Below, one piece after another: positions 3,354-34,554 of a stretch of 64,000 nt of DNA. Position 1 is the stretch's first letter; every line of letters starts with the position of its first letter. Position numbers and translations under genes: made by a program. The DNA is from Arachidicoccus terrestris (GTDB lineage: Bacteria; Bacteroidota; Bacteroidia; Chitinophagales; Chitinophagaceae). The notes under the pieces were generated by a model. It was not told the DNA's origin and searched no databases. It saw only the letters and a program-made list of their open reading frames with translations. The stretch is taken from NCBI RefSeq assembly GCF_020042345.1, contig NZ_CP083387.1, positions 3,720,001 through 3,784,000 of the forward strand. The letters run 5' to 3'.

Positions 3354-3361
3354 TACCTTTG
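3354..3361 (+). promoter_or_regulatory. Promoter -7 element TACCTTTG of the cobalamin operon
   Basis: It matches the Bacteroidota -7 consensus TAnnTTTG exactly. It lies directly before the riboswitch, so transcription should start near 3368. No clear TTTG -33 box is visible at the usual distance. Confidence 0.6.
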
Positions 3362-3369
3362 CGGCGATA

Positions 3370-3540
3370 TCGGTTTTTGCTTCGGCAAAATTAAAAGGGA
3401 AGTTGGTGCAAATCCAACGCTATCCCCGTAGCTGTGAGCTTTCAGATGATAATAGTTGTCTGTTTTCCGGATGAAACCACTGCCGGCACTTGTTGGTGGG
3501 AAGGAGACGGTATAAAGCAAGCCAGAAGACCTGCCTATAT
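3370..3540 (+). promoter_or_regulatory. Cobalamin (AdoCbl-type) riboswitch
   Basis: The landmarks of the B12 riboswitch appear in order: a closing stem near 3370-3390, then GGGAAGTTGGTGCAAATCC (3398-3416), then CCCCGTAGCTGT (3424-3435). Next come the variable stem, CCACTGCC (3477-3484) and TTGGTGGGAAGGAGACGG (3492-3509). AGCAAGCCAGAAGACCTGCC (3517-3536) closes the element. It sits in the leader of the TonB-dependent receptor gene. In this family, bound cobalamin represses expression of the downstream uptake genes. The gap from the aptamer to the ATG at 3695 leaves room for an expression platform, although I see no obvious terminator, so translational control is possible. Confidence 0.9.
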
Positions 3541-3694
3541 CAATTATATTTAGCTAAAATGGACTTTCGGGTGAAAGGTCTGCAGCAATTGTCATTCTGC
3601 GAAACGGCTGGTGTTGACACATCCGGGGTTTCGTGGTATTTGTGCAATAAAGTTGTTGCCTGTTCTCCTGTTTTTCCGGTTACTGATCTCACAA

Positions 3695-24049: not shown

Positions 24050-24186
24050 CTTTATCTGGCGACTAATAGTATGATTTTGTGGTCGCGGAGACGAATTTGA
24101 CTTATTGCAGAATTATTATAGACTGATAATAAGGTGTTTTCTTTGAAAACATTCAAGATTTTTCATATGGCAAGCAATCGTTAGAG

Positions 24187-24217
24187 GCCGTCCTTAGTCT
24201 TAGGGAGGGCTTTTTTT
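24187..24217 (+). terminator. Orphan terminator-like hairpin
   Basis: GCCGTCCTTA (24187-24196) pairs with TAGGGAGGGC (24201-24210), with one mismatch and one wobble, followed by seven T residues. The preceding lipoprotein already has a terminator at 24014. This one may therefore end a short RNA from about 24050-24186, where I see no ORF and only a weak TTTCTTTG box (24138-24145). Confidence 0.55.
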
Positions 24218-24389
24218 GTAGCACAAACTGTCTGTTTTTGTTGAATGGTATATAAAAACTAACAATTGTTTTCATGAAAATAAAAAAAAATTTGTGGGTA
24301 AGTAATATGTACGTAACTTTGACCCCGATAATAATTAAAAAAAAAGTATATAAAAAATACCTAATAACTATTCAGAGAGAACAGGCACC

Positions 24390-24476
24390 ATGGCAAAAAA
24401 ATCCTTTACATTTTATTTCTGCTTTTTTCAGTTTTTTTATTTTAGAAAAACAAGGGCTGGTGTTGTGCAACTTTAA
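24390..24476 (+). CDS. Phenylalanine-rich leader peptide (pheL-like) of the aromatic operon
   Basis: ATG 24390 to TAA 24476 encodes 28 residues. Residues 6-18 contain eight Phe and two Tyr (FTFYFCFFQFFYF); the rest is MAKKS before and a basic tail after. A terminator hairpin follows 22 bases after the stop, and prephenate dehydratase starts at 24558. This is the classical layout of transcription attenuation by Phe supply: ribosomes stall on UUU/UUC codons when charged tRNA-Phe is scarce. A purine-rich AGAGAGAA lies about 10 bases before the ATG. The longer open frame overlapping it in another phase lacks these features. Confidence 0.8.
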   Translation: MAKKSFTFYFCFFQFFYFRKTRAGVVQL

Positions 24477-24498
24477 TCATCTTAAACATATATAACCC

Positions 24499-24527
24499 AT
24501 CCCGATCTTCTAGGCATCGGGATTTTT
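24499..24527 (+). terminator. Attenuator terminator before pheA
   Basis: ATCCCGAT (24499-24506) pairs with ATCGGGAT (24515-24522), followed by TTTTT. An alternative pairing of GGGCTGG (24454-24460, just after the Phe run) with CCATCCC (24497-24503) would block this stem, as expected of an antiterminator. The alternative pairing is inferred by eye. Confidence 0.75.
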
Positions 24528-24557
24528 GTTTTACACAGAATATATTACAATACAACT

Positions 24558-25412
24558 ATGGAATCTCGCAAAGGTAATACTGCTCCCAAAAAAATAGCCA
24601 TACAAGGCTATGAGGGTAGCTTCCACCAGGAAGCAGCCCAATATTATTACGGTAAACAAGTAGAAGTTATTGCTTGTGACACCTTCCGTGACGTCGTTAA
24701 AATAGCCTCTGATAAGAAGACTAGCGACGGAGGAATTATGGCCATTGAAAACACCATAGCCGGCAGTATTTTACCCAACTATAACTTATTGCAGAAAAGT
24801 AAGCTTAAAATTGTGGGTGAGGTTTACCTGATGATTCGTCAAAACCTAATGGTGAGTATCGGTGTTCCTTTGGAAGATATTAAAGAAGTACACTCTCATC
24901 CGATGGCTATTCAGCAATGTTTTAAATTTTTGGATGAGCACAATTGGAAATTAGTGGAGACGGAAGATACAGCACTCAGTGCCCGTAAACTTAGTAAAAG
25001 TAAGAGTCCGCACGTTGCAGTTATTGCGAGCCGCCTGGCTGCGGAGATCTATGATTTGGAGCTGATCGCCCCTAATATCCATACACTTAAAAATAACTAT
25101 ACACGGTTTTTAATCCTTAACAGAGAAGAAGACGTCGTGGATATTCCGGATGCAAATAAGGCATCTATTTATTTTCATACGGATAATTCAAAGGGTAGTC
25201 TGGCCAAAGTACTCAATAAGATCAATGAAGTAGATATTAATTTGAGCAAATTGCAGAGTTTTCCCATTCCGGGCAGTGACTGGAAGTATAGCTTCCATGC
25301 AGATATGGAATTTGACAGCAGAGATAAATTTGAATTGGCATTAGAGCTGATTCGTCCGTTGACAGAAGAGCTCCGCATAAATGGAATTTACAGAAAAGGC
25401 AAGACAATATAA
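24558..25412 (+). CDS. pheA: Prephenate dehydratase
   Basis: Converts prephenate to phenylpyruvate, the committed step to Phe. The 284-residue protein is a monofunctional dehydratase without a chorismate mutase domain. It starts KKIAIQGYEGSFHQEAA and has the active-site motif NNYTRFLIL (catalytic Thr) near 195. A C-terminal ACT domain (KGSLAKVLNKINEVDINLSK, then ESFPIPG-like QSFPIPGSDW) normally gives Phe feedback inhibition. Chorismate mutase activity is supplied by the fusion at 29278. It is the first gene behind the Phe leader. Confidence 0.95.
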   Translation: MESRKGNTAPKKIAIQGYEGSFHQEAAQYYYGKQVEVIACDTFRDVVKIASDKKTSDGGIMAIENTIAGSILPNYNLLQKSKLKIVGEVYLMIRQNLMVSIGVPLEDIKEVHSHPMAIQQCFKFLDEHNWKLVETEDTALSARKLSKSKSPHVAVIASRLAAEIYDLELIAPNIHTLKNNYTRFLILNREEDVVDIPDANKASIYFHTDNSKGSLAKVLNKINEVDINLSKLQSFPIPGSDWKYSFHADMEFDSRDKFELALELIRPLTEELRINGIYRKGKTI

Positions 25413-25424
25413 GTAATCATTTTT

Positions 25425-26591
25425 ATGAGTCAGGTAGCGAATAGATTAGCAGGAATACAGGAATACTATTTTTCAAAAAAATTAAGGGAAATAGAGCAGC
25501 TGAATAATGAAGGCAAACGTATTATTAACCTGGGCATTGGCAGCCCTGATCTGCCTCCCGACCCGAGTGTAATAGCTGTTTTAGAGGATGAGTCGCGCAA
25601 GCCGGATGTACATGGATATCAGTCATATAAAGGGGCACCTCCGTATAGGAAGGCCATCTCCGATTGGTATAGTAAATGGTACGGTGTGCAGGTCGATCCT
25701 AATAAAGAAGTGTTACCGCTTATGGGATCTAAGGAGGGTATTATGCATATCTGCATGACTTATCTGAACCCGGGCGATCAGGTATTAGTCCCCAATCCCG
25801 GTTACCCAACCTATGCCAGTAATGTAGCATTGACTGGAGCGGTTTCAGTTACCTATGCACTGACAGAAGAAAATGACTGGGAGCCTGATTTTGGCCAGCT
25901 TGAAAAGCAGGATTTGTCCAAAGTCAAGCTCATGTTTGTTAATTATCCGGGGATGCCGACGGGAAAAGCCGCCAGCAAGGTACTTTTTGAGAAGTTGGTG
26001 GATTTTGCGAGAAGGCATAAAATATTATTGGTGCATGATAACCCGTATAGTTTTATTTTAAATCAAAAGCCGATCAGCCTGTTGAGTATTCCTGGTGCAT
26101 TGGAGGTCGCTATTGAACTCAATTCCCTGAGCAAGTCCCATAATATGGCCGGCTGGAGACTGGGGATGCTTCTGGGAGCCGAGCAGCGTATCCTGGAAAT
26201 TCTGCGGTTTAAAAGCAATATGGATAGCGGCATGTTCCTGCCTTTACAACTGGCCGGTGCAAAAGCACTATCATTAGGTAGGCAGTGGCATGATCAGGTA
26301 AATGAAGTGTACAGTGCAAGAAGAAAAAAAGTGGAAGAACTGCTGGATTTGTTGGCTTGCGAGTATAGCAAAAGCCAGGTAGGCCTGTTTATGTGGGCCA
26401 GCATCCCGTCCCGATACAGGGATGGCTACGAACTGGCGGATGAAGTACTGTATGGTGCGAACGTTTTTATCACACCAGGCGGCATATTCGGTTCAGAAGG
26501 GAACAGATACATACGTATCAGCCTGTGTGGGGACATTAGCCGGTTTGAAGAGGCTATTGGAAGAGTAAAAGAAATGCAGGGTAAGAGATAG
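25425..26591 (+). CDS. PLP-dependent class I/II aminotransferase
   Basis: A 388-residue fold-type I aminotransferase, probably converting phenylpyruvate and 4-hydroxyphenylpyruvate to Phe and Tyr, given that it lies between pheA and tyrA. Motifs are NPGYPTYASN in the substrate/cofactor region, NYPGMPTGK (where most relatives have NPxNPTG) and the Schiff-base Lys237 in SLSKSHNMAGWRLG. C-terminal FGSEGNRYIRISLC carries the carboxylate-binding Arg. It resembles the DapL/AspC-like groups common in Bacteroidota; substrate preference is inferred from position only. It starts 12 bases after pheA. Confidence 0.88.
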   Translation: MSQVANRLAGIQEYYFSKKLREIEQLNNEGKRIINLGIGSPDLPPDPSVIAVLEDESRKPDVHGYQSYKGAPPYRKAISDWYSKWYGVQVDPNKEVLPLMGSKEGIMHICMTYLNPGDQVLVPNPGYPTYASNVALTGAVSVTYALTEENDWEPDFGQLEKQDLSKVKLMFVNYPGMPTGKAASKVLFEKLVDFARRHKILLVHDNPYSFILNQKPISLLSIPGALEVAIELNSLSKSHNMAGWRLGMLLGAEQRILEILRFKSNMDSGMFLPLQLAGAKALSLGRQWHDQVNEVYSARRKKVEELLDLLACEYSKSQVGLFMWASIPSRYRDGYELADEVLYGANVFITPGGIFGSEGNRYIRISLCGDISRFEEAIGRVKEMQGKR

Positions 26592-26605: not shown

Positions 26606-27472
26606 ATGAAACAAAGAAATTTAACGACAACTATAATCGGATTGGGGCTTATCGGCGGTACCATGGCCTGGGCTTTGAGAGACCACGAGTTGAGTGGACG
26701 TATTATAGGTGTTGATGATAACCCTTTACACAGTAAAAGGGCGCTGGAACTTGGAATAGTTGATGAAATCCTTCCGCTGGAAAAAGCCGTTGCGGCAGCT
26801 GACCTGCTTTTTCTGGCCATTCCGGTAACCAGTGCGGCAGCATTATTGCCAGTTATATTGGATCAGACGGATAAGCAGGTTATTACGGATGTAGGTTCTA
26901 CAAAAAGAGGGCTGGTGACGGCTGCCGAAGGACATCGTAAAAGAGGGCGTTATGTACCGGCGCATCCCATGTGGGGTACTGAATTCAGTGGCCCCGACGC
27001 TGCTTCCCGAAATGTGCTGGAGGGTGTTGTAAATATAATTTGTGACCCGCAGGACAGCGATAAAGACGCATTGGCCTTAGTTGAAAATATATTGAAAGAA
27101 CTGGGCATGCGAATTGTCTATATGGATAGCCTGAGTCACGATACACACTTGGCTTATGTATCTCATATTTCTCATATTTCCAGTTTTGCCCTGGCCAACA
27201 CCGTTTTGGAAAAGGAAAAAGAGGAAGAGACGATCTTTAATCTGGCAAGTTCAGGATTTGAGAGTACGGTCAGGCTCGCTAAAAGTAATAGTGATACATG
27301 GGTGCCTGTATTCAAGCAAAATAAAGAAAATGTGCTGGATGTGTTAAACGAATATATCTCGCAATTAAGGAAATTTAAATCATCGCTGGAAAAAGAGAAC
27401 TGGGATTATTTAAATGAACTTATTGAGTCCTCTAATAAGATTAGAAAGGTTCTGGATAAAAAACAGCAATAA
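26606..27472 (+). CDS. tyrA: Prephenate dehydrogenase
   Basis: Oxidatively decarboxylates prephenate to 4-hydroxyphenylpyruvate on the Tyr branch. The 288-residue protein opens with an NAD(P) motif, IIGLGLIGGTMAWAL. It then has DVGSTKRGLV and HPMWGTEFSG, which contains the prephenate-binding His, and HLAYVSHISHISSFAL in the helical dimer domain. There is no ACT or mutase domain. It begins 14 bases after the aminotransferase and is surely in the same transcript. Confidence 0.95.
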   Translation: MKQRNLTTTIIGLGLIGGTMAWALRDHELSGRIIGVDDNPLHSKRALELGIVDEILPLEKAVAAADLLFLAIPVTSAAALLPVILDQTDKQVITDVGSTKRGLVTAAEGHRKRGRYVPAHPMWGTEFSGPDAASRNVLEGVVNIICDPQDSDKDALALVENILKELGMRIVYMDSLSHDTHLAYVSHISHISSFALANTVLEKEKEEETIFNLASSGFESTVRLAKSNSDTWVPVFKQNKENVLDVLNEYISQLRKFKSSLEKENWDYLNELIESSNKIRKVLDKKQQ

Positions 27473-27533: not shown

Positions 27534-29225
27534 ATGATTACATTTGAACAACTGGGACTGGATGATCGTTTGGTAAAGGCTACCAGCGAATTAGGATACA
27601 TCCACCCAACGCCAATACAGGAAAAGGCGATTCCGGTATTACTTGGCGGCACAAGAGATCTGATCGGTCTGGCACAGACCGGAACAGGTAAAACAGCAGC
27701 ATTTTCCTTACCGCTGCTCAGTATTATTAAGGAGGATAAGAAATATCCGCAGGCCCTTATTGTTTGTCCTACGCGTGAGCTATGCTTGCAAATTGTAAAG
27801 GAGATTGTCGGATTTAAAAAATTCATGAAAGAGATCAGTGTCGTGGCTGTTTATGGAGGAGCTTCCATTAGTTTACAGATTCGCGATATTAAAAGAGGGG
27901 TGCAGATTATTGTTGCGACTCCGGGAAGGCTTATTGATCTGATCGAAAGAAAGGCAGTGAACCTGGAAAAAATTCAATACGTTGTACTGGATGAAGCCGA
28001 TGAAATGCTAAACATGGGCTTCCAGGACGATATTGAGTTTATCCTGAAAAACACGCCCATCAGGGAAAGTACCTGGCTGTTCAGTGCCACGATGCCACCA
28101 GCCATACGCAAGGTGTCCAAAAAATATATGGATAATCCGGAAGAGATCACTGTCGGTAAGGCTAATACGGTCAATACAAATATTGATCACCAGTATTACG
28201 TGACTTCTGCGCAGCACCGTTATGAAACTTTAAAACGGCTGATAGATTTTAACCCGGGTATATACGGAATCATCTTTACCCGTACCAAGGCAGATGCCCA
28301 GCAGATTGCTGAAAAATTAACCCGCGAAGGATACGATATCGATGCTTTGCATGGCGATCTGACACAACCACAACGGGACCGTGTCATGAAGCAGTTCAGA
28401 GACCGGAGTCTGCAGCTCCTGATTGCTACAGATGTAGCGGCCAGAGGGATTGATGTAAAAGAAATTACACACGTTATCAATTATGAACTACCGGATGACG
28501 TAGAAGTATATACACATAGAAGCGGCCGTACTGGCCGCGCTGGTTCTACCGGTATCTGTATCAGTATTATTCATTCCAGGGAAAGCTATCGCTTGAAGCA
28601 GATTCAGAAAATTGTACAGGCCCCTTTCAATAAATTGGAAATCCCATCCGGAAAAGATGTATGCCGCAAACAGTTTTTCTATTTTATGGACCGGCTGCTG
28701 AAAGCAGATGTGTCTCATGGAGATTATGAATCCTATGTGCCTATGCTGGAAGAGAAGTTTTCCGATATTTCTAAGGAAGAAGTTTTAAAAAGGGTAGCGG
28801 CACTGGAATTTGACCGGTTTTTGCAATATTATGAAAATGCGGGTGACTTGAATGTGCGGGCTAATGATAACAAAGGCGATAGAAGAGACAGACAGTCGGG
28901 TGGCAGTGGTAGAGACAGAGATCGTAGTGATCGTGGCAGCCGTAATGGAAGAAGAGACAGCCGCGATTTTCAAGGAGACACAACAAGACTCTTTATTAAT
29001 ATTGGCACAAAAGACGGCTTTTATAAAGCCAGCTTCCTGCAGTTCATTCTGGATATGAGTGACCTTAGAAAGGATGTATTGGGGCGCATTGATATGAAAG
29101 AAATGAACTCATGGGTGGAGATCGATAAAAGAGCAGCGGTGCAAATGATCCGCTCTCTGGATGGCAAAAAGTTCAAAGGGCGTAAGATCCGTATGAATGA
29201 TGCAGAAACAGGTGGTCGCCGTTAA
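27534..29225 (+). CDS. DEAD-box RNA helicase with C-terminal RNA-binding domain
   Basis: An ATP-dependent RNA helicase of the DeaD/CsdA-DbpA type (563 residues) with all motifs: AQTGTGKT, PTRELCLQ, DEAD in VLDEADEMLNMGF, SATMP and HRSGRTGRAG. A basic Arg/Gly/Asp-rich linker (RDRDRSDRGSRNGRRDSRD) leads to a DbpA-like RNA-binding domain (RLFINIGTKDGFY to GRKIRMNDAE). Likely roles are ribosome assembly or cold-shock RNA remodelling. It sits within the aromatic gene cluster, 61 bases after tyrA and 52 bases before DAHP synthase, in the same direction. Confidence 0.95.
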   Translation: MITFEQLGLDDRLVKATSELGYIHPTPIQEKAIPVLLGGTRDLIGLAQTGTGKTAAFSLPLLSIIKEDKKYPQALIVCPTRELCLQIVKEIVGFKKFMKEISVVAVYGGASISLQIRDIKRGVQIIVATPGRLIDLIERKAVNLEKIQYVVLDEADEMLNMGFQDDIEFILKNTPIRESTWLFSATMPPAIRKVSKKYMDNPEEITVGKANTVNTNIDHQYYVTSAQHRYETLKRLIDFNPGIYGIIFTRTKADAQQIAEKLTREGYDIDALHGDLTQPQRDRVMKQFRDRSLQLLIATDVAARGIDVKEITHVINYELPDDVEVYTHRSGRTGRAGSTGICISIIHSRESYRLKQIQKIVQAPFNKLEIPSGKDVCRKQFFYFMDRLLKADVSHGDYESYVPMLEEKFSDISKEEVLKRVAALEFDRFLQYYENAGDLNVRANDNKGDRRDRQSGGSGRDRDRSDRGSRNGRRDSRDFQGDTTRLFINIGTKDGFYKASFLQFILDMSDLRKDVLGRIDMKEMNSWVEIDKRAAVQMIRSLDGKKFKGRKIRMNDAETGGRR

Positions 29226-29277
29226 TCAAGAACAACAACTTAAAACAAACATTAATCATCATTAATCATTTTGTAAA

Positions 29278-30366
29278 ATGGAAACAGCAAACATTGCAGC
29301 AAAAAAAGAACAGGTTATGCAAGTGCTGAAAAAGCGTCCGCTGATCATCTCCGGACCTTGCAGTGCAGAGACAGAAGAACAGGTGATGGCCACGGCTTTG
29401 GGATTGAAACAAACAGGCAAAGTGGATATCATACGGGCGGGTATATGGAAACCAAGGACGCGCCCGGGTAGTTTTGAAGGTATTGGAACAAAAGGGCTGC
29501 CCTGGTTGCAGGCAGCTAAGGCTGCGACCGGCTTATTGACTGCCGTAGAGGTAGCTACCCCCAAACAGGCAGAAGATGCCTTACACTTTGGCGTAGATAT
29601 CTTATGGCTGGGAGCCAGAACTACAGTCAATCCATTTAGCGTGCAAGATCTGGCCGATGCGCTGCGCGGGGTAGATGTACCCGTGTTGATTAAAAATCCA
29701 ATCAATCCCGATCTGGAACTTTGGACAGGTGCCGTTGAACGTATTGACCGTGCCGGGATTAAAGATATAGGCCTGATTCACCGCGGTTTTGCTTCTTATG
29801 GTAATAGCGAATACCGTAATGCGCCGATGTGGCATCTGGCTATCGAGATGAAACGTCGCTATCCCGAGTTGTTGTTTATCAATGATCCTTCACATATCTG
29901 TGGTCGTCGTGATAATCTGGTCGCTGTAGCACAGGAAGCGATTGATCTGGATTATGACGGTTTGATCATTGAATCTCATATTGATCCGGATAAAGCCTGG
30001 AGTGATGCGAAACAGCAGGTGACACCTGAAAGACTGGGCGCTATGCTGGATGAGATCGTGTGGCGCAAAGAAACCGTTCATGCGACCGATCATGCCACTC
30101 TGGAGAAATATCGTCAGCAGATCAATCACCTCGATGATGAAATGATCCAGCTGATCGGCCAGCGTATGAAAGTCGCTGATCTGATCGGTAAGTATAAAAA
30201 GGAAAATGGTATTACCATTTTGCAAACGAATCGCTGGAACGAGATCCTGGAGAAGGCCGTTATTAAAGGTGAGAAAAAAGGACTCAGCAAAGAGTTTATC
30301 ACGAAGTATTTTGACGCCATTCATATGGAGAGCATCGCACATCAAAATAAAATAATGAACGATTAA
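29278..30366 (+). CDS. Bifunctional DAHP synthase / chorismate mutase
   Basis: The N-terminal 265 residues form a KDO8P-synthase-like DAHP synthase: PLIISGPCSAETEEQV, RAGIWKPRTRPGSFEG, WLGARTTVNPF, IHRGFASY and DPSHICGRR. It condenses PEP and erythrose 4-phosphate to begin the shikimate pathway. The C-terminal 85 residues (KYRQQINHLDDEMIQLIGQR to the end) are an AroQ-type chorismate mutase, which makes prephenate for PheA and TyrA. The fusion couples first and branch-point steps; in related enzymes prephenate or chorismate feedback acts through the mutase domain. No N-terminal ACT domain is present. Confidence 0.95.
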   Translation: METANIAAKKEQVMQVLKKRPLIISGPCSAETEEQVMATALGLKQTGKVDIIRAGIWKPRTRPGSFEGIGTKGLPWLQAAKAATGLLTAVEVATPKQAEDALHFGVDILWLGARTTVNPFSVQDLADALRGVDVPVLIKNPINPDLELWTGAVERIDRAGIKDIGLIHRGFASYGNSEYRNAPMWHLAIEMKRRYPELLFINDPSHICGRRDNLVAVAQEAIDLDYDGLIIESHIDPDKAWSDAKQQVTPERLGAMLDEIVWRKETVHATDHATLEKYRQQINHLDDEMIQLIGQRMKVADLIGKYKKENGITILQTNRWNEILEKAVIKGEKKGLSKEFITKYFDAIHMESIAHQNKIMND

Positions 30367-30471
30367 TGGTGCTGCATTAACCTGTAATTGCTGTAATGCC
30401 TGCAAAGCAACCTTATCCTCCGGCAAAGACCGGAGGGTAGGTGTGGCTTACTGGCCTTTAAAGAAAAGACC

Positions 30472-31512
30472 TTGAAAAAGACAATTAAATTTAGTTCAGG
30501 CAGCACTGTCTTCCATTTTGACAGTAGTCTGGAAGTTCTGGGAAAGCTGGTGGATAAAAGCACCACCTATATCATTACTGATGATAATGTCTATCATTAC
30601 TATCAGAAGAGGTTAAAGGGGTGGAACGTCCTGCTGATTAAGGCAGGCGAAGCCTTTAAAAATATGGACGCTGTACAGCAACTGACTGGCCAGCTGATCG
30701 AAGCCGGTGCTGATAGAAGATCCACTATTATTGGCATGGGGGGCGGCGTGGTTACTGACATTGCAGGGTTTGTGGCTTCAATTTATTTAAGAGGTGTAGA
30801 CTTTGGATTTATTCCCACTTCTGTTTTAGCCATGGTAGATGCGTCTATTGGCGGCAAAAACGGGGTAGATGTGGGGGTCTTTAAAAACATGGTCGGGAAT
30901 ATCCGTCAACCTCGTTTTTTGTTGTATGACTATAGCCTTCTAAAAACCCTGCCCGATAATGAGTGGATAGGCGGGTTTGCAGAGATAATTAAACATGCCT
31001 GCATCAAAGATGCGGCCATGTTCAAGTTTCTGGAGGAACACTCTTTGAAGGAATATAAAAAGAAGCCTGCACTCTTGAGTGAGTTGATCCAGCGCAATGT
31101 GCTGATTAAAGCTAAAGTGGTACAGAAAGATGAAACTGAACAGGGTGATAGAAAATTGCTTAATTTTGGACATACCCTGGGTCATGCCATTGAAAACACT
31201 TATCAACTCCCGCATGGAGAAGCTGTATCTATCGGCATGGTTGTCGCTGCCTACCTATCTAAAGCCATTCTTGATTTTAAAGAATCGGAAAGGATCGTAA
31301 AACTAGTAAAAGCTTATGGTTTACCTGCTTATTATGATTATGACGCTCAGGACGCGCTGATGAAAATGCGCTCAGATAAAAAACGTGTGAAGGACCAGAT
31401 CCATTTCGTGCTTTTAGAAAAGATCGGTAAGGCTGTTTATCAACCGCTGTCCATGGATCAGATCGCTAGCGTGGTAGAAACAATGGGCGGTTCAGTAACC
31501 TTATCCAAATAA
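30472..31512 (+). CDS. aroB: 3-Dehydroquinate synthase
   Basis: Cyclises DAHP to 3-dehydroquinate with catalytic NAD and a divalent metal. The 346-residue protein has the NAD loop GMGGGVVTDIAGFVASIYLR and PTSVLAMVDASIGGK. Metal ligands come from GFAEIIKHA, FGHTLGHAIE and LPHGEAVSIGM. The start appears to be TTG 30472; no ATG lies in frame close by, and homologues begin at about this position. A 105-base spacer from the preceding gene holds a small hairpin, CCTCCGG/CCGGAGG (30417-30436), without a T tract. Confidence 0.95.
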   Translation: MKKTIKFSSGSTVFHFDSSLEVLGKLVDKSTTYIITDDNVYHYYQKRLKGWNVLLIKAGEAFKNMDAVQQLTGQLIEAGADRRSTIIGMGGGVVTDIAGFVASIYLRGVDFGFIPTSVLAMVDASIGGKNGVDVGVFKNMVGNIRQPRFLLYDYSLLKTLPDNEWIGGFAEIIKHACIKDAAMFKFLEEHSLKEYKKKPALLSELIQRNVLIKAKVVQKDETEQGDRKLLNFGHTLGHAIENTYQLPHGEAVSIGMVVAAYLSKAILDFKESERIVKLVKAYGLPAYYDYDAQDALMKMRSDKKRVKDQIHFVLLEKIGKAVYQPLSMDQIASVVETMGGSVTLSK

Positions 31513-31524
31513 TATATAAGAAAC

Positions 31525-32856
31525 ATGATTTTTGAAAGTATAGAGATTCCATATTCAGTAATCATTCATCCCGGGAAAGTACATGGTGAGATCACTGCTC
31601 CTGCTTCCAAGAGTTCGATGCAGCGGGCAGCTGCGGCTGCGCTTGTCAGCGGTGGTATATCCCTGATTGAAAATCCCGGAATATCCAATGATGACCAGGC
31701 TTCCGTAGGTGTGATAGAAGCGTTGGGGGCATTGGTAGAGATAGAGCCGACGGGTGCTTTAAAAGTGGATGCCACCCATTTGAGTGAAGGTTCTGCAAGA
31801 GATACAGAGGTACATTTCGGAGAAAGCGGTCTTGGAATCAGAATGTTTACTTCTATTGCCGCCCTGCGTCCAGGCAAGATCCGAATCGAGGGGCAGGGCA
31901 GCCTCAGGACTCGCCCGATGGATTTTTTTGATGAGACCTTACCTAAATTAGGTGTTACGGTCAAATCCAATCAGGGCAAATTGCCTTTAGAGATCAAAGG
32001 GCCATTAACGCCAAAAGACATTACCATTGATGGCTCATTAAGTTCTCAGTTTCTGACTGGTTTATTACTGGCTTACGCTGCAGCTGATGCTTCTGATGTG
32101 ACGATCTCGGTGACCGATCTGAAAAGCCGGCCGTATGTGGATCTTACCTTAAAGGTCATGGCTGATTTTGGTCTTAAAATACCTGTTAATCACAATTATG
32201 AGCGCTTTTATTTTGAAAAAGCCGTGCATGCAAAAGGAACAGACCCGACTACATATCAGGTAGAAGGTGACTGGAGCGGCGGCGCCTTTCTGCTGGTTGG
32301 GGGTGCGATCAGGGGACCGGTTACCGTGAAGGGACTGGATACTCAGTCGACTCAAGCGGATAAGGCTATATTGCAGGCGCTGACCGATACCGGTTGCCAG
32401 TTGTCTGTGGCTGAGGACCGGATTGAAATCGGTCCTATGGCGGCAGGCGGCCCACTTAAAGCTTTCCATTTTGATGCAACGGATTGCCCCGATTTATTTC
32501 CACCGTTGGTAGCACTGGCAGCTTATTGCGCAGGTAGGACCGTGATAGAGGGCGTGTCAAGACTCGCTCATAAAGAAAGTAATCGTGCATTGACATTGCA
32601 GGATGAGTTTGCAAAATTCGGTGTAAAGATTGAGCTACAGGATGACCTGATGATCATTGAAGGAAATAACAATGGTCAGTTGTCAGGTGACATCACCACG
32701 CATTCCCGGCATGACCACCGCATCGCGATGGCGGCAGCTATTGCCGCCTTGGGCGCTGCGGGACCAGTGCAGATCGATGAAGCACCAGCCGTGAAAAAGT
32801 CTTATCCTAATTTCTACCGCCACCTTGAGCAATTAGGTGTAACTTTAAGTTATTAA
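31525..32856 (+). CDS. aroA: 3-Phosphoshikimate 1-carboxyvinyltransferase (EPSP synthase)
   Basis: Transfers enolpyruvyl from PEP to shikimate 3-phosphate. The 443-residue protein shows KVHGEITAPASKSSMQRAA for phosphate and shikimate binding, FGESGLGIRMFTSIAAL, GSLSSQFLTGLLLA and DCPDLFPPLVALAA. It ends with SRHDHRIAMAAAIAALG. In Escherichia coli the equivalent of GESG is GNAG; the Glu-Ser-Gly form is found in several Bacteroidota, so this loop may alter inhibitor sensitivity (inference). It begins 12 bases after aroB. Confidence 0.95.
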   Translation: MIFESIEIPYSVIIHPGKVHGEITAPASKSSMQRAAAAALVSGGISLIENPGISNDDQASVGVIEALGALVEIEPTGALKVDATHLSEGSARDTEVHFGESGLGIRMFTSIAALRPGKIRIEGQGSLRTRPMDFFDETLPKLGVTVKSNQGKLPLEIKGPLTPKDITIDGSLSSQFLTGLLLAYAAADASDVTISVTDLKSRPYVDLTLKVMADFGLKIPVNHNYERFYFEKAVHAKGTDPTTYQVEGDWSGGAFLLVGGAIRGPVTVKGLDTQSTQADKAILQALTDTGCQLSVAEDRIEIGPMAAGGPLKAFHFDATDCPDLFPPLVALAAYCAGRTVIEGVSRLAHKESNRALTLQDEFAKFGVKIELQDDLMIIEGNNNGQLSGDITTHSRHDHRIAMAAAIAALGAAGPVQIDEAPAVKKSYPNFYRHLEQLGVTLSY

Positions 32857-32895
32857 TTTTCAATATCAATATTCGGGATCGTAAAAAATCGGATT

Positions 32896-33513
32896 ATGTT
32901 GCAAAGCAAAAAGATAAGGGCTATTTTTACAGACATCGGAGGAGTACTGCTTAATAATGGATGGGACAGACATAAAAGAGCATTAGCGGTGGAAAAGTTC
33001 AGTCTGGACGCGGAGGAGCTGAATGAGAGGCATCATCTGACATTTGATACGTATGAAGAAGGCAAGATTACCCTGGATCAGTATCTGGACCGGGTCATTT
33101 TCTACACCTCCAGGGATTTTACCAGAGAGGATTTCAAAACCTTTATGTACGGACTCTCTGAACCTTTTGAAGATATGATCGAACTGATGAAGAGCCTTAA
33201 AAAACAGCACCAGCTGCATATCGCGGTGGTCAGTAACGAGGGGCGGGAATTAAATGATCATAGGATCCGGCACTTTGGCCTCAATACTTTTGTTGATGCT
33301 TTTATTTCTTCCAGTTTTGTACATATCCGTAAACCGGATGAAGACATTTTCAAACTGGCGCTGGATATTTCGCAGATGAAGCCGGAAGAAGTGGTCTTTA
33401 TCGATGATCGGCCTATGTTCGTACAGGTAGCGGGTTTACTGGGGATTAAAGGTATTATACATAAGCACTATGAGAACACGAAGAGTGAATTGGAGGCCCT
33501 GTTGGCTGGTTAG
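32896..33513 (+). CDS. HAD-superfamily hydrolase (subfamily IA)
   Basis: A 205-residue phosphatase-like protein between aroA and aroC. The nucleophile motif is FTDIGGVLLNNGWD, with Gly rather than Asp at the +2 position, as in the FDLGGV subgroup. Further motifs are VVSNEGRELN (motif II), a Lys in HIRKPDEDIF (motif III) and FIDDRPMFV (motif IV). A helical cap lies between residues 25 and 90. The substrate is unknown. Its position could be accidental or reflect housekeeping of a phosphorylated intermediate. Confidence 0.88.
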   Translation: MLQSKKIRAIFTDIGGVLLNNGWDRHKRALAVEKFSLDAEELNERHHLTFDTYEEGKITLDQYLDRVIFYTSRDFTREDFKTFMYGLSEPFEDMIELMKSLKKQHQLHIAVVSNEGRELNDHRIRHFGLNTFVDAFISSSFVHIRKPDEDIFKLALDISQMKPEEVVFIDDRPMFVQVAGLLGIKGIIHKHYENTKSELEALLAG

Positions 33514-33552
33514 CCTTTTTAAGACGTAACTTTAAATAATATTATAGATAGC

Positions 33553-34554
33553 ATGAATGGATTTGGCAGATTATACAGACTTCATATATTCGGGGAATCC
33601 CATGGCGCATCGGTAGGAATCAATATTGATGGCGTGCCCGCAGGGCTGCCACTGAGAGTAGAGGATTTTATGCCCGACATGGAAAGGCGGAAAGGCGGGA
33701 AACAAAAGGGAGCGACTCCCAGGCAAGAAGCTGATATGCCTATTTTTAAAAGCGGGCTTTTTAATGGATATGCAACAGGGGCACCTATCACCATCTTATT
33801 TGAGAACAATAATACACGCTCCGAAGACTATCAGAAACATCGTTCCCATCCACGGCCAGGGCATGCTGATTTCGTAGCACATGAGAAATTCGGCGGGTTC
33901 GAGGATTTCAGAGGTGGTGGAAGTTTTAGTGCCAGGCTCACTGCTGGTATTGTTGCAGCGGGCGTGATTGCAAAAAAAATACTGGGATCCGGAATAAATA
34001 TTCGGGCGGAGGTTACAGAAATCGGAGGTAGTAAAGATATAGAGGCTGGTCTGGAAGCAGCCATTGCAAAGAAAGACAGTGTCGGGGCAATTATTGAGTG
34101 CCGGGTCACCGGCCTGCCTGTTGGGCTGGGCGAACCCTTCTTTGACAGCGTGGAATCAGAGCTGGCTCATGCGGCGATGGCGATCCCCGCCGTCAGAGGG
34201 GTGGAGTTCGGTACCGGATTTGCGGCTGCTGCGATGTTTGGCCTGGAGCACAATGATGCCATTATAGATATACAGGGCACAACCCGTACCAATCATGCCG
34301 GAGGAGTGGTAGGCGGCATTACCAATGGCAATGAGTTGATTTACAGAATTGCCGTAAAACCTACGTCGTCTACACCGCAGGTCCAAAATACCCTGAACTG
34401 GGAAACCGGGAAAGTTGACGATTTTTCTGTTAAAGGCAGGCATGACCTTTGCGTTGGCCTGCGGGCACCGGTAATTCTGGAAGCTATGACGGCTATTGTA
34501 CTTGTGGACCTGATGATGCTTGCCGGTAAAGTGGATCGGATCTGGAAGGGGTGA
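33553..34554 (+). CDS. aroC: Chorismate synthase
   Basis: Eliminates phosphate from EPSP to give chorismate, needing reduced FMN. The 333-residue protein starts MNGFGRLYRLHIFGESHGAS. It includes RRKGGKQKGATPRQEAD, the FMN/EPSP-site segment RPGHADFVAHEKFGGFEDF, RGGGSFSARLTAG and VVGGITNGNELIYRIAVKPT, and ends with LVDLMMLAG. It is slightly shorter than the common 350-390 residues but no core motif is missing. It is the last gene of the aromatic cluster. The dehydroquinase, shikimate dehydrogenase and shikimate kinase genes are not in this window. Confidence 0.95.
   Translation: MNGFGRLYRLHIFGESHGASVGINIDGVPAGLPLRVEDFMPDMERRKGGKQKGATPRQEADMPIFKSGLFNGYATGAPITILFENNNTRSEDYQKHRSHPRPGHADFVAHEKFGGFEDFRGGGSFSARLTAGIVAAGVIAKKILGSGINIRAEVTEIGGSKDIEAGLEAAIAKKDSVGAIIECRVTGLPVGLGEPFFDSVESELAHAAMAIPAVRGVEFGTGFAAAAMFGLEHNDAIIDIQGTTRTNHAGGVVGGITNGNELIYRIAVKPTSSTPQVQNTLNWETGKVDDFSVKGRHDLCVGLRAPVILEAMTAIVLVDLMMLAGKVDRIWKG

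Follow-up and report, generated by a model that had tools for sequence, protein, structure and literature searches.

In Arachidicoccus terrestris the gene for prephenate dehydratase (pheA) is preceded by a short open reading frame (ORF) rich in phenylalanine codons and by a hairpin followed by a T-run, and the question raised by this locus is whether these together form an attenuator, what such an attenuator would sense and how far along the aromatic gene cluster it would act. The locus was examined within a 64-kb stretch of DNA, referred to here as the window, and in the corresponding regions of other genomes. Judging from sequence comparison and folding calculations, the leader is very probably a ribosome-mediated transcription attenuator of pheA, and its control probably includes the neighbouring aminotransferase and tyrA genes.

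Layout of the leader region and downstream genes

The features of the region, all on the plus strand and numbered from the start of the window, are as follows.

24291-24321: predicted promoter of the Bacteroidota type, with TTTG (24291-24294), a 19-nt spacer and TAACTTTG (24314-24321)
24390-24476: leader ORF of 28 codons, ATG to TAA, encoding MAKKSFTFYFCFFQFFYFRKTRAGVVQL
24405-24443: sensing run, codons 6-18 of the leader ORF, with eight Phe and two Tyr codons in 13
24431-24451: small hairpin spanning the final Phe/Tyr codons and an A-rich segment that precedes strand A
24454-24467: antiterminator strand A, starting 10 nt past the Phe run
24491-24503: antiterminator 3′ strand, sharing 24499-24503 with the terminator 5′ arm
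24499-24532: intrinsic terminator, with arms 24499-24506 (ATCCCGAT) and 24516-24523 (ATCGGGAT), 8 bp, a 9-nt loop and a T-rich tail to 24532
24558-25412: pheA, prephenate dehydratase, the first structural gene (PF00800, E-value 6e-57)
25425-26591: class I/II aminotransferase gene, after a 12-nt gap from pheA
26606-27472: tyrA, prephenate dehydrogenase, after a 14-nt gap from the aminotransferase gene
27534-34554: possible remainder of the operon, coding for a DEAD helicase, DAHP synthase-chorismate mutase, aroB, aroA, a HAD hydrolase and aroC

A first-pass annotation of this DNA had described a 28-codon ORF with eight Phe and two Tyr codons in a 13-codon run. Its coordinates proved exact and the run is beyond chance, as no ATG or GTG ORF of 10-60 codons with eight Phe in 13 codons arose when the 380 bases preceding pheA were dinucleotide-shuffled 5000 times. 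Searches of Pfam and NCBIfam with the 28-aa leader peptide returned no families, a peptide so short being a poor query. The predicted promoter has its TAnnTTTG box 68 nt before the ATG and a TTG at a spacing of 19, as in leaders L002-L006. With the box at -12 to -5, the position given in passages of PMC9723704, transcription is predicted to start at about 24326, leaving a predicted 5′ UTR of about 64 nt.

The hairpin-T terminator that had been proposed between the leader and prephenate dehydratase was located at 24499-24532, its hairpin (24499-24523) having a predicted energy of -10.8 kcal/mol. A generic terminator scan misses it (the loop limit of the scan is 8, the loop here is 9). A second pairing put forward as its rival, of 24454-24460 (GGGCTGG) with 24497-24503 (CCATCCC), is borne out with six of seven pairs and one C-U mismatch, and RNAfold lengthens it to an interrupted helix of 24454-24467 with 24491-24503. 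Since positions 24499-24503 are common to both structures, antiterminator and terminator are mutually exclusive. The antiterminator of A. terrestris is weak, among the weakest of the set of leaders described below: the duplex of strand A with the terminator arm (strict arm) comes to -4.4 kcal/mol, a value that 36 of the 41 arms of other leaders would improve on if paired with this strand A. The fold of the whole leader has z = -1.72, with 8 of 200 shuffles as stable. The small hairpin at 24431-24451 is equalled in stability by 1 of 100 shuffles; it adjoins strand A and does not use it. Support for such a hairpin at the end of the Phe run is moderate across the set: in 26 of 66 leaders no more than 5 of 100 shuffles match its stability, and the mean z is -1.41.

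In the proposed mechanism, RNA polymerase would transcribe the leader while a ribosome, presumably coupled to it, translates the leader ORF. With ample charged Phe-tRNA, and probably Tyr-tRNA, the ribosome would read all 13 codons of the run, reach the stop codon and cover strand A (24454-24467), upon which the terminator hairpin would form and transcription would stop. When charging is low, the ribosome would stall in the run with its leading edge ending about at the start of strand A, which would then pair with 24491-24503, so that the terminator would be delayed and polymerase would enter pheA.

A leader ORF may also act on translation, by reinitiation or by exposure of the pheA start, instead of on transcription termination. 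Passages of PMC4833913 propose reinitiation at leader genes in several phyla and give a peak at 11-14 bp for the distance from leader to gene in Bacteroidetes. However, the leader stop and the pheA ATG are here 81 nt apart, with the terminator hairpin and its T-run in between, and relatives too have a hairpin and T-run after the leader; control of translation was rejected on this account as quite improbable. A metabolite-binding riboswitch, a T-box or a protein-binding leader, in which the ORF would be incidental, was rejected as well and is hardly credible, since an Rfam scan of the leader region gave no leader, T-box or riboswitch family at gathering score and the conserved part consists of the codon run and simple helices. 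With relaxed settings there were 12 weak Rfam matches, all far under their cut-offs, the sole leader type among them being Trp_leader (18.3 bits against 41).

The reach of transcription attenuation beyond tyrA can be judged from the genes that follow. These are separated by gaps of 12-105 nt in the series 27534-34554, and a simple, non-exhaustive scan found no plus-strand terminator-like sites in the gaps down to aroC. From this spacing and from the lack of terminator-like sites in the gaps, it is possible that attenuator control extends as far as aroC; three relatives, described below, have the leader in front of a DAHP synthase-like gene of such a cluster.

The window has other elements of note. 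A cobalamin riboswitch lies at 3354-3552 (Rfam, 99.6 bits). Upstream of the Phe leader promoter, the sequence at 24159-24217 consists of TTTTTCATATGGCAAGCAATCGTTAG followed by a hairpin, the sequence of which varies between copies, and a T-run. Of 40 genomes of the family, 27 contain a 19-mer (ATGGCAAGCAATCGTTAGA, with at most one mismatch), frequently in more than one copy and in some cases as a series with intervals of about 380-530 bp; the reversed control pattern had no match. The element reads as a five-codon ORF, MASNR plus stop, and in exact copies (with G five bases after CGT) a stop codon comes next in 53 of 54, with TAG, TAA and TGA all seen. In several copies a GATTGCTTG-like stretch, flanked by short complementary arms, lies upstream; by eye it is complementary to CAAGCAATC. 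The element at 24159-24217 matches no Rfam family at cut-off and looks like an undescribed small RNA family.

Conservation of the leader and covariation of its pairing

PheA was found in 35 of 59 relatives and in 258 of 296 genomes of the phylum that were searched for comparison, and the upstream regions of 94 pheA loci were examined, of which 54 were best search matches and 40 were chosen for diversity. A leader was called when a Phe/Tyr-rich ORF scored at least 9, a threshold fixed after the scores proved bimodal. A leader ORF lies within 380 bases of the PheA match at 69 of the 94 loci, and one was also found at L071, upstream of a fused gene. By kinship this comes to 65 of the 69 loci of the A. 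terrestris class, directly before pheA, and to 5 of the 25 outside it, the other 20 lacking the leader. Three further class loci from one family (L067, L072, L073) have it 3.6-4.0 kb upstream of pheA, before a DAHP synthase-like gene that is the first of an operon continuing through aroB-like and aroA-like genes to pheA (genes named by eye from translations). The leader thus stands at the head of the operon at 68 of the 69 class loci, and the remaining one, L029, has no leader within 6.7 kb.

A second set was made up of the best 80 of 532 PheA relatives with titled records (Chitinophagaceae and unclassified Bacteroidota assemblies), five of which repeat loci of the first set. Among these best 80, the closest PheA proteins are those of Arachidicoccus rhizosphaerae (97%) and A. 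ginsenosidivorans (95%). A leader is present in 79 of the 80, 77 being found by script and two (L204, L205) on translation; L209 has none, its translation having been checked. Two leader ORFs in series before pheA occur at four loci of the first set (L027, L030, L035, L036). The second ORF of L030 is Tyr-rich (MNCMGYTYYYFF...), and its tandem leaders could sense Phe and Tyr separately.

The substitutions within the sensing run respect its aromatic residues. Pairwise comparison of the 13-codon runs of L001, L002 and L003 gave eight silent differences, six of them in Phe codons, and seven replacements, which fall exclusively on spacer residues (T/N, C/E/G, Q/S); Phe and Tyr are never replaced, and all six differences in their codons (pairwise count) are silent. 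Among the nine distinct runs of family f24, aromatic residues vary silently or from one aromatic residue to another only (F/Y, F/W, W/Y), so that the runs compared hold no replacement of an aromatic by a non-aromatic codon. The best 13-residue windows of 74 leaders contain 387 Phe, 245 Tyr and 9 Trp, and since Tyr is so frequent beside Phe, the leader is of a Phe+Tyr type, its signal probably being the charging of Phe and/or Tyr. The element had been proposed as a phenylalanine attenuator; its Phe-rich leader stands, and Phe as the sole relevant codon does not, as Tyr counts too. The leader seems to be a joint sensor of Phe and Tyr, which fits a cluster holding both pheA and tyrA.

The hairpin that follows the leader was located by script in 70 of the 74 leaders, the script failing for L004, L065, L069 and L070 and giving a wrong terminator in four records (one of L035, two of L036, one of L055). 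The eight leaders without a correct terminator were excluded from the permutation and folding tests, leaving 66 for folding. Because a MAFFT alignment of 32 sequences put strand A one base off in several rows, pairs were not counted there and permutation and folding tests were used. The permutation test took one leader per distinct arm (n = 42). In these 42 the first base pairing with the terminator 5′ arm lies 3-18 nt past the end of the run, mostly 7-14, and the arm itself differs by lineage, examples being CCCGG, CCTGAT, CCTCAG and GGGAGTTCTC. The duplex of strand A with its own arm has a mean of -12.42 kcal/mol, against -9.27 ± 0.33 with permuted arms (0 of 10,000 permutations), and without the CCCGG arms the 25 remaining leaders give -11.25 against -8.03 ± 0.44 kcal/mol (again 0 of 10,000); as the sequences are related, these permutation counts overstate independence. 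A leader's own arm is its best partner in 12 of the 42 (median rank 5), being seldom top-ranked because the arms resemble one another. Judged from these sequences, strand A and the terminator 5′ arm change together across leaders. A pause signal for RNA polymerase was also considered as the conserved feature of strand A, but pairing alone can account for the conservation of the strand.

The first-pass annotation had suggested checking whether relatives keep the Phe codons and both helices, and they do: the leader is at 68 of 69 class loci, its aromatic codons are kept and strand A covaries. The same findings decide against reading the terminator as the end of an upstream transcript or small RNA, with the Phe-rich ORF a chance product of a T-rich stretch. 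The region is indeed T-rich, and taken singly five leaders of relatives (L028, L043, L044, L047, L064) are matched by 11 to 23 of 200 shuffles. Yet a chance ORF would hardly be found at nearly every class locus with aromatic codons kept in frame, covary between strand A and the arm, and stay at the operon head despite changed gene order, and an upstream transcript would already meet the other terminator-like hairpin, at about 24186-24217, which precedes the predicted promoter. A chance origin is exceedingly unlikely and was rejected.

Five genomes outside the class (L034, L038, L058, L063, L071) carry a Phe leader, with PheA proteins 43-57% identical to that of A. terrestris. In three of their families (f35, f38, f53) the other listed members have PheA at 32-38%. 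This difference suggests a possible joint transfer of pheA and its attenuator.

Predicted folding response to ribosome position

The response of the attenuator to the ribosome was approached by folding the RNA made up to the terminator 5′ arm, with the ribosome footprint masked, in the 66 leaders, and taking the fraction of the arm paired upstream. The mean fraction is 0.73 with the ribosome at the first Phe/Tyr codon, 0.66 at the last and 0.08 at the stop codon, and the difference between first and stop exceeds 0.3 in 64 of the 66 leaders and is never below -0.1. The A. terrestris leader gives 0.51, 0.50 and 0.00 respectively. Of 72 further leaders, taken from the second set, 71 show a difference above 0.3, and L177 is the one that does not switch in the calculation. 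With the same calculation the E. coli leaders pheL, trpL, hisL, thrL and leuL give 0.31-0.83 at the first codon and 0.00-0.07 at the stop, the difference exceeding 0.3 in four of the five; hisL is weak (0.31 at the first codon, 0.06 at the last His, 0.07 at the stop). That a stalled ribosome would free the antiterminator and a translating one would cover it, as the first-pass annotation had supposed, is accordingly what folding predicts in 64 of 66 leaders, and the E. coli controls agree. Part of the difference between stall and stop is geometric, because shuffled spacers still give 0.45 at the first Phe; in 40 of 66 leaders at most 1 of 20 spacer shuffles reaches the observed value. An earlier version of the test had no terminator for L011, L018 and L027, used a wrong hairpin for L008, L013 and L015, and gave weak z-scores for L003 (-0.7), L026 (-1.1) and L036 (-0.7 and -1.4).

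On full-length RNA the terminator of A. terrestris has a probability of 1.00 at every ribosome position tested. Over the 66 leaders the median is 0.99-1.00 with the ribosome stalled and 1.00 at the stop, and just 10 of them show an equilibrium shift above 0.3. With the finished terminator favoured at equilibrium in most leaders, these could switch only kinetically, and a kinetic switch is what the calculations suggest.

The folds also bear on the state of a leader that carries no ribosome. Enteric leaders have a 1:2 protector hairpin, which fits a terminator arm that is free without a ribosome, and in the five E. coli leaders the arm pairing without a ribosome is 0.00-0.26. In the 66 leaders it has a mean of 0.63, with at least 0.5 in 54, 0.3-0.5 in five and less than 0.3 in seven (L026, L028, L038, L039, L040, L071, L078), and in the second set it is at least 0.5 in 69 of 72 further leaders. 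These no-ribosome folds, a folding prediction only, point to the absence of a 1:2 protector hairpin. The leaders might then be two-state attenuators, a variant of the attenuator model with a default unlike that of enteric leaders, in which a stalled ribosome or no ribosome at all leaves the antiterminator in place and an untranslated leader reads through. Beside the pairing values, the position of the A. terrestris small hairpin, next to strand A and leaving it unused, agrees with such a default. The calculation is one of equilibrium folding of truncated RNA only, the A. terrestris leader is borderline at 0.50, and the twelve leaders below 0.5 depart from it, so that we give the two-state variant about an even chance of being right.

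Predicted leaderless starts, other amino acid leaders and known systems

Bacteroidota ribosomes mostly initiate without Shine-Dalgarno pairing. In the family of A. terrestris, 18 of 25 leaders from outside the genus have a TAnnTTTG box ending 4-9 nt before the start codon, against 0.22 such boxes expected in all from shuffled upstream regions of 24 leaders; 55 of 72 leaders of the second set have it. Among the ORFs of the window that encode 150 aa or more, taken from the first ATG on both strands and probably including some that are not genes, the count is 0 of 48. A box in this place, at -12 to -5, leaves a 5′ UTR of 0-5 nt. Taking all 74 leaders, the box lies within 10 nt in 21 and there is none within 90 nt in 34, a close box being rare outside the family. 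The Phe leaders of the A. terrestris genus are an exception, with the box 35-70 nt before the ATG. The Phe leader mRNA is thus predicted to be nearly leaderless in most relatives and not in A. terrestris. For F. psychrophilum, passages of PMC9723704 give 5.5% leaderless mRNAs.

Other amino acid leaders are present as well. A. terrestris has MFKKAHTHHHHFLFNG before hisG (L109) and MILNTVNIHWWWQCSKTSGPFEV before trpE (L116), with the box 5 and 4 nt before the ATG and predicted 5′ UTRs of 1 and 0 nt respectively, and both are candidate leaderless attenuators. His-rich leaders precede hisG at 11 of 11 loci and Trp-rich leaders precede trpE-type genes at 9 of 12 (L118 having scattered Trp); in the Trp leaders of the genus (L116, L117, L119) the script picked the wrong hairpin. 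Ile/Val-rich leaders with antiterminator-like pairing lie before ilvD at 6 of 12 loci (L122, L123, L124, L126, L129, L130), and the ilvD gene of A. terrestris has no leader within 1500 bases. A class-wide reading, which we offer tentatively and with more doubt than confidence, is that the attenuators of these Bacteroidota are often leaderless or nearly so and have two exclusive helices and no protector hairpin, that untranslated RNA would read through and only a finished leader would terminate, and that some lineages have two in series. If this is true, the first ribosome, beginning translation right at the 5′ end, could keep close behind the polymerase.

Leader-peptide attenuation requires a ribosome close behind RNA polymerase, and to our knowledge transcription-translation coupling in Bacteroidota is an open question. 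The conserved Phe/Tyr leader, together with the His and Trp leaders of the same genome and the Ile/Val leaders of relatives, offers a natural reporter for coupling and yields testable predictions on the default state. For a large group of environmental bacteria, it also adds a proposed regulator of the aromatic pathway.

The principle is textbook, and attenuation across bacteria was reportedly treated by Lopatovskaya et al. in 2010. Its spread and details in Bacteroidota are mostly undescribed, and the leaders may have variant features. The element had been called worth documenting in Bacteroidota; it is not a first report, as section 19 of PMC9723704 (2021) describes clues to leader-peptide attenuation before operons for amino acids in F. 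psychrophilum and names conserved 5′ elements that precede pheA and hisG in Flavobacteriaceae. For Chitinophagaceae or the class as a whole, no literature on a Phe leader peptide was found in a search mostly outside subscription journals. The f24 leaders (MSNNRFYFSNSFYFFF...) may be the same as the pheA element of Flavobacterium psychrophilum and other Flavobacteriaceae, the identity of f24 with Flavobacteriaceae being a guess. The text examined of PMC9723704 differs in giving no peptide, pairing or reach past that family for its element, and its supplement may hold more.

With respect to RNA families, the Bacteroid-trp RNA precedes trp genes. It is a candidate cis-regulatory RNA of Bacteroidetes (Rfam RF01692; listed in PMC2864571), and it has no match in the window at gathering score. 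With respect to leaderless starts, trpL of S. meliloti produces its leader peptide from an mRNA starting at the AUG (passages of PMC10117765), as predicted for most relatives and for the Trp leader of A. terrestris, and mycobacterial polycysteine ORFs (cited in PMC13236596) are likewise leaderless attenuator ORFs. However, these belong to other phyla and involve other amino acids, and the Phe leader of A. terrestris has its predicted 64-nt 5′ UTR. A further likeness, in arrangement, is to E. coli pheL/pheA, which also has a Phe-rich leader ORF and an intrinsic terminator before pheA, and in which the response to a stalled and a finished ribosome (0.83 and 0.00) has the same direction as in A. 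terrestris. The two differ in that no Rfam leader family matches the A. terrestris leader, that in the no-ribosome fold half of the terminator arm is paired in A. terrestris (0.50) and almost none of it in E. coli (0.05), and that the A. terrestris leader adds Tyr codons to its run, with tyrA lying downstream in the same direction.
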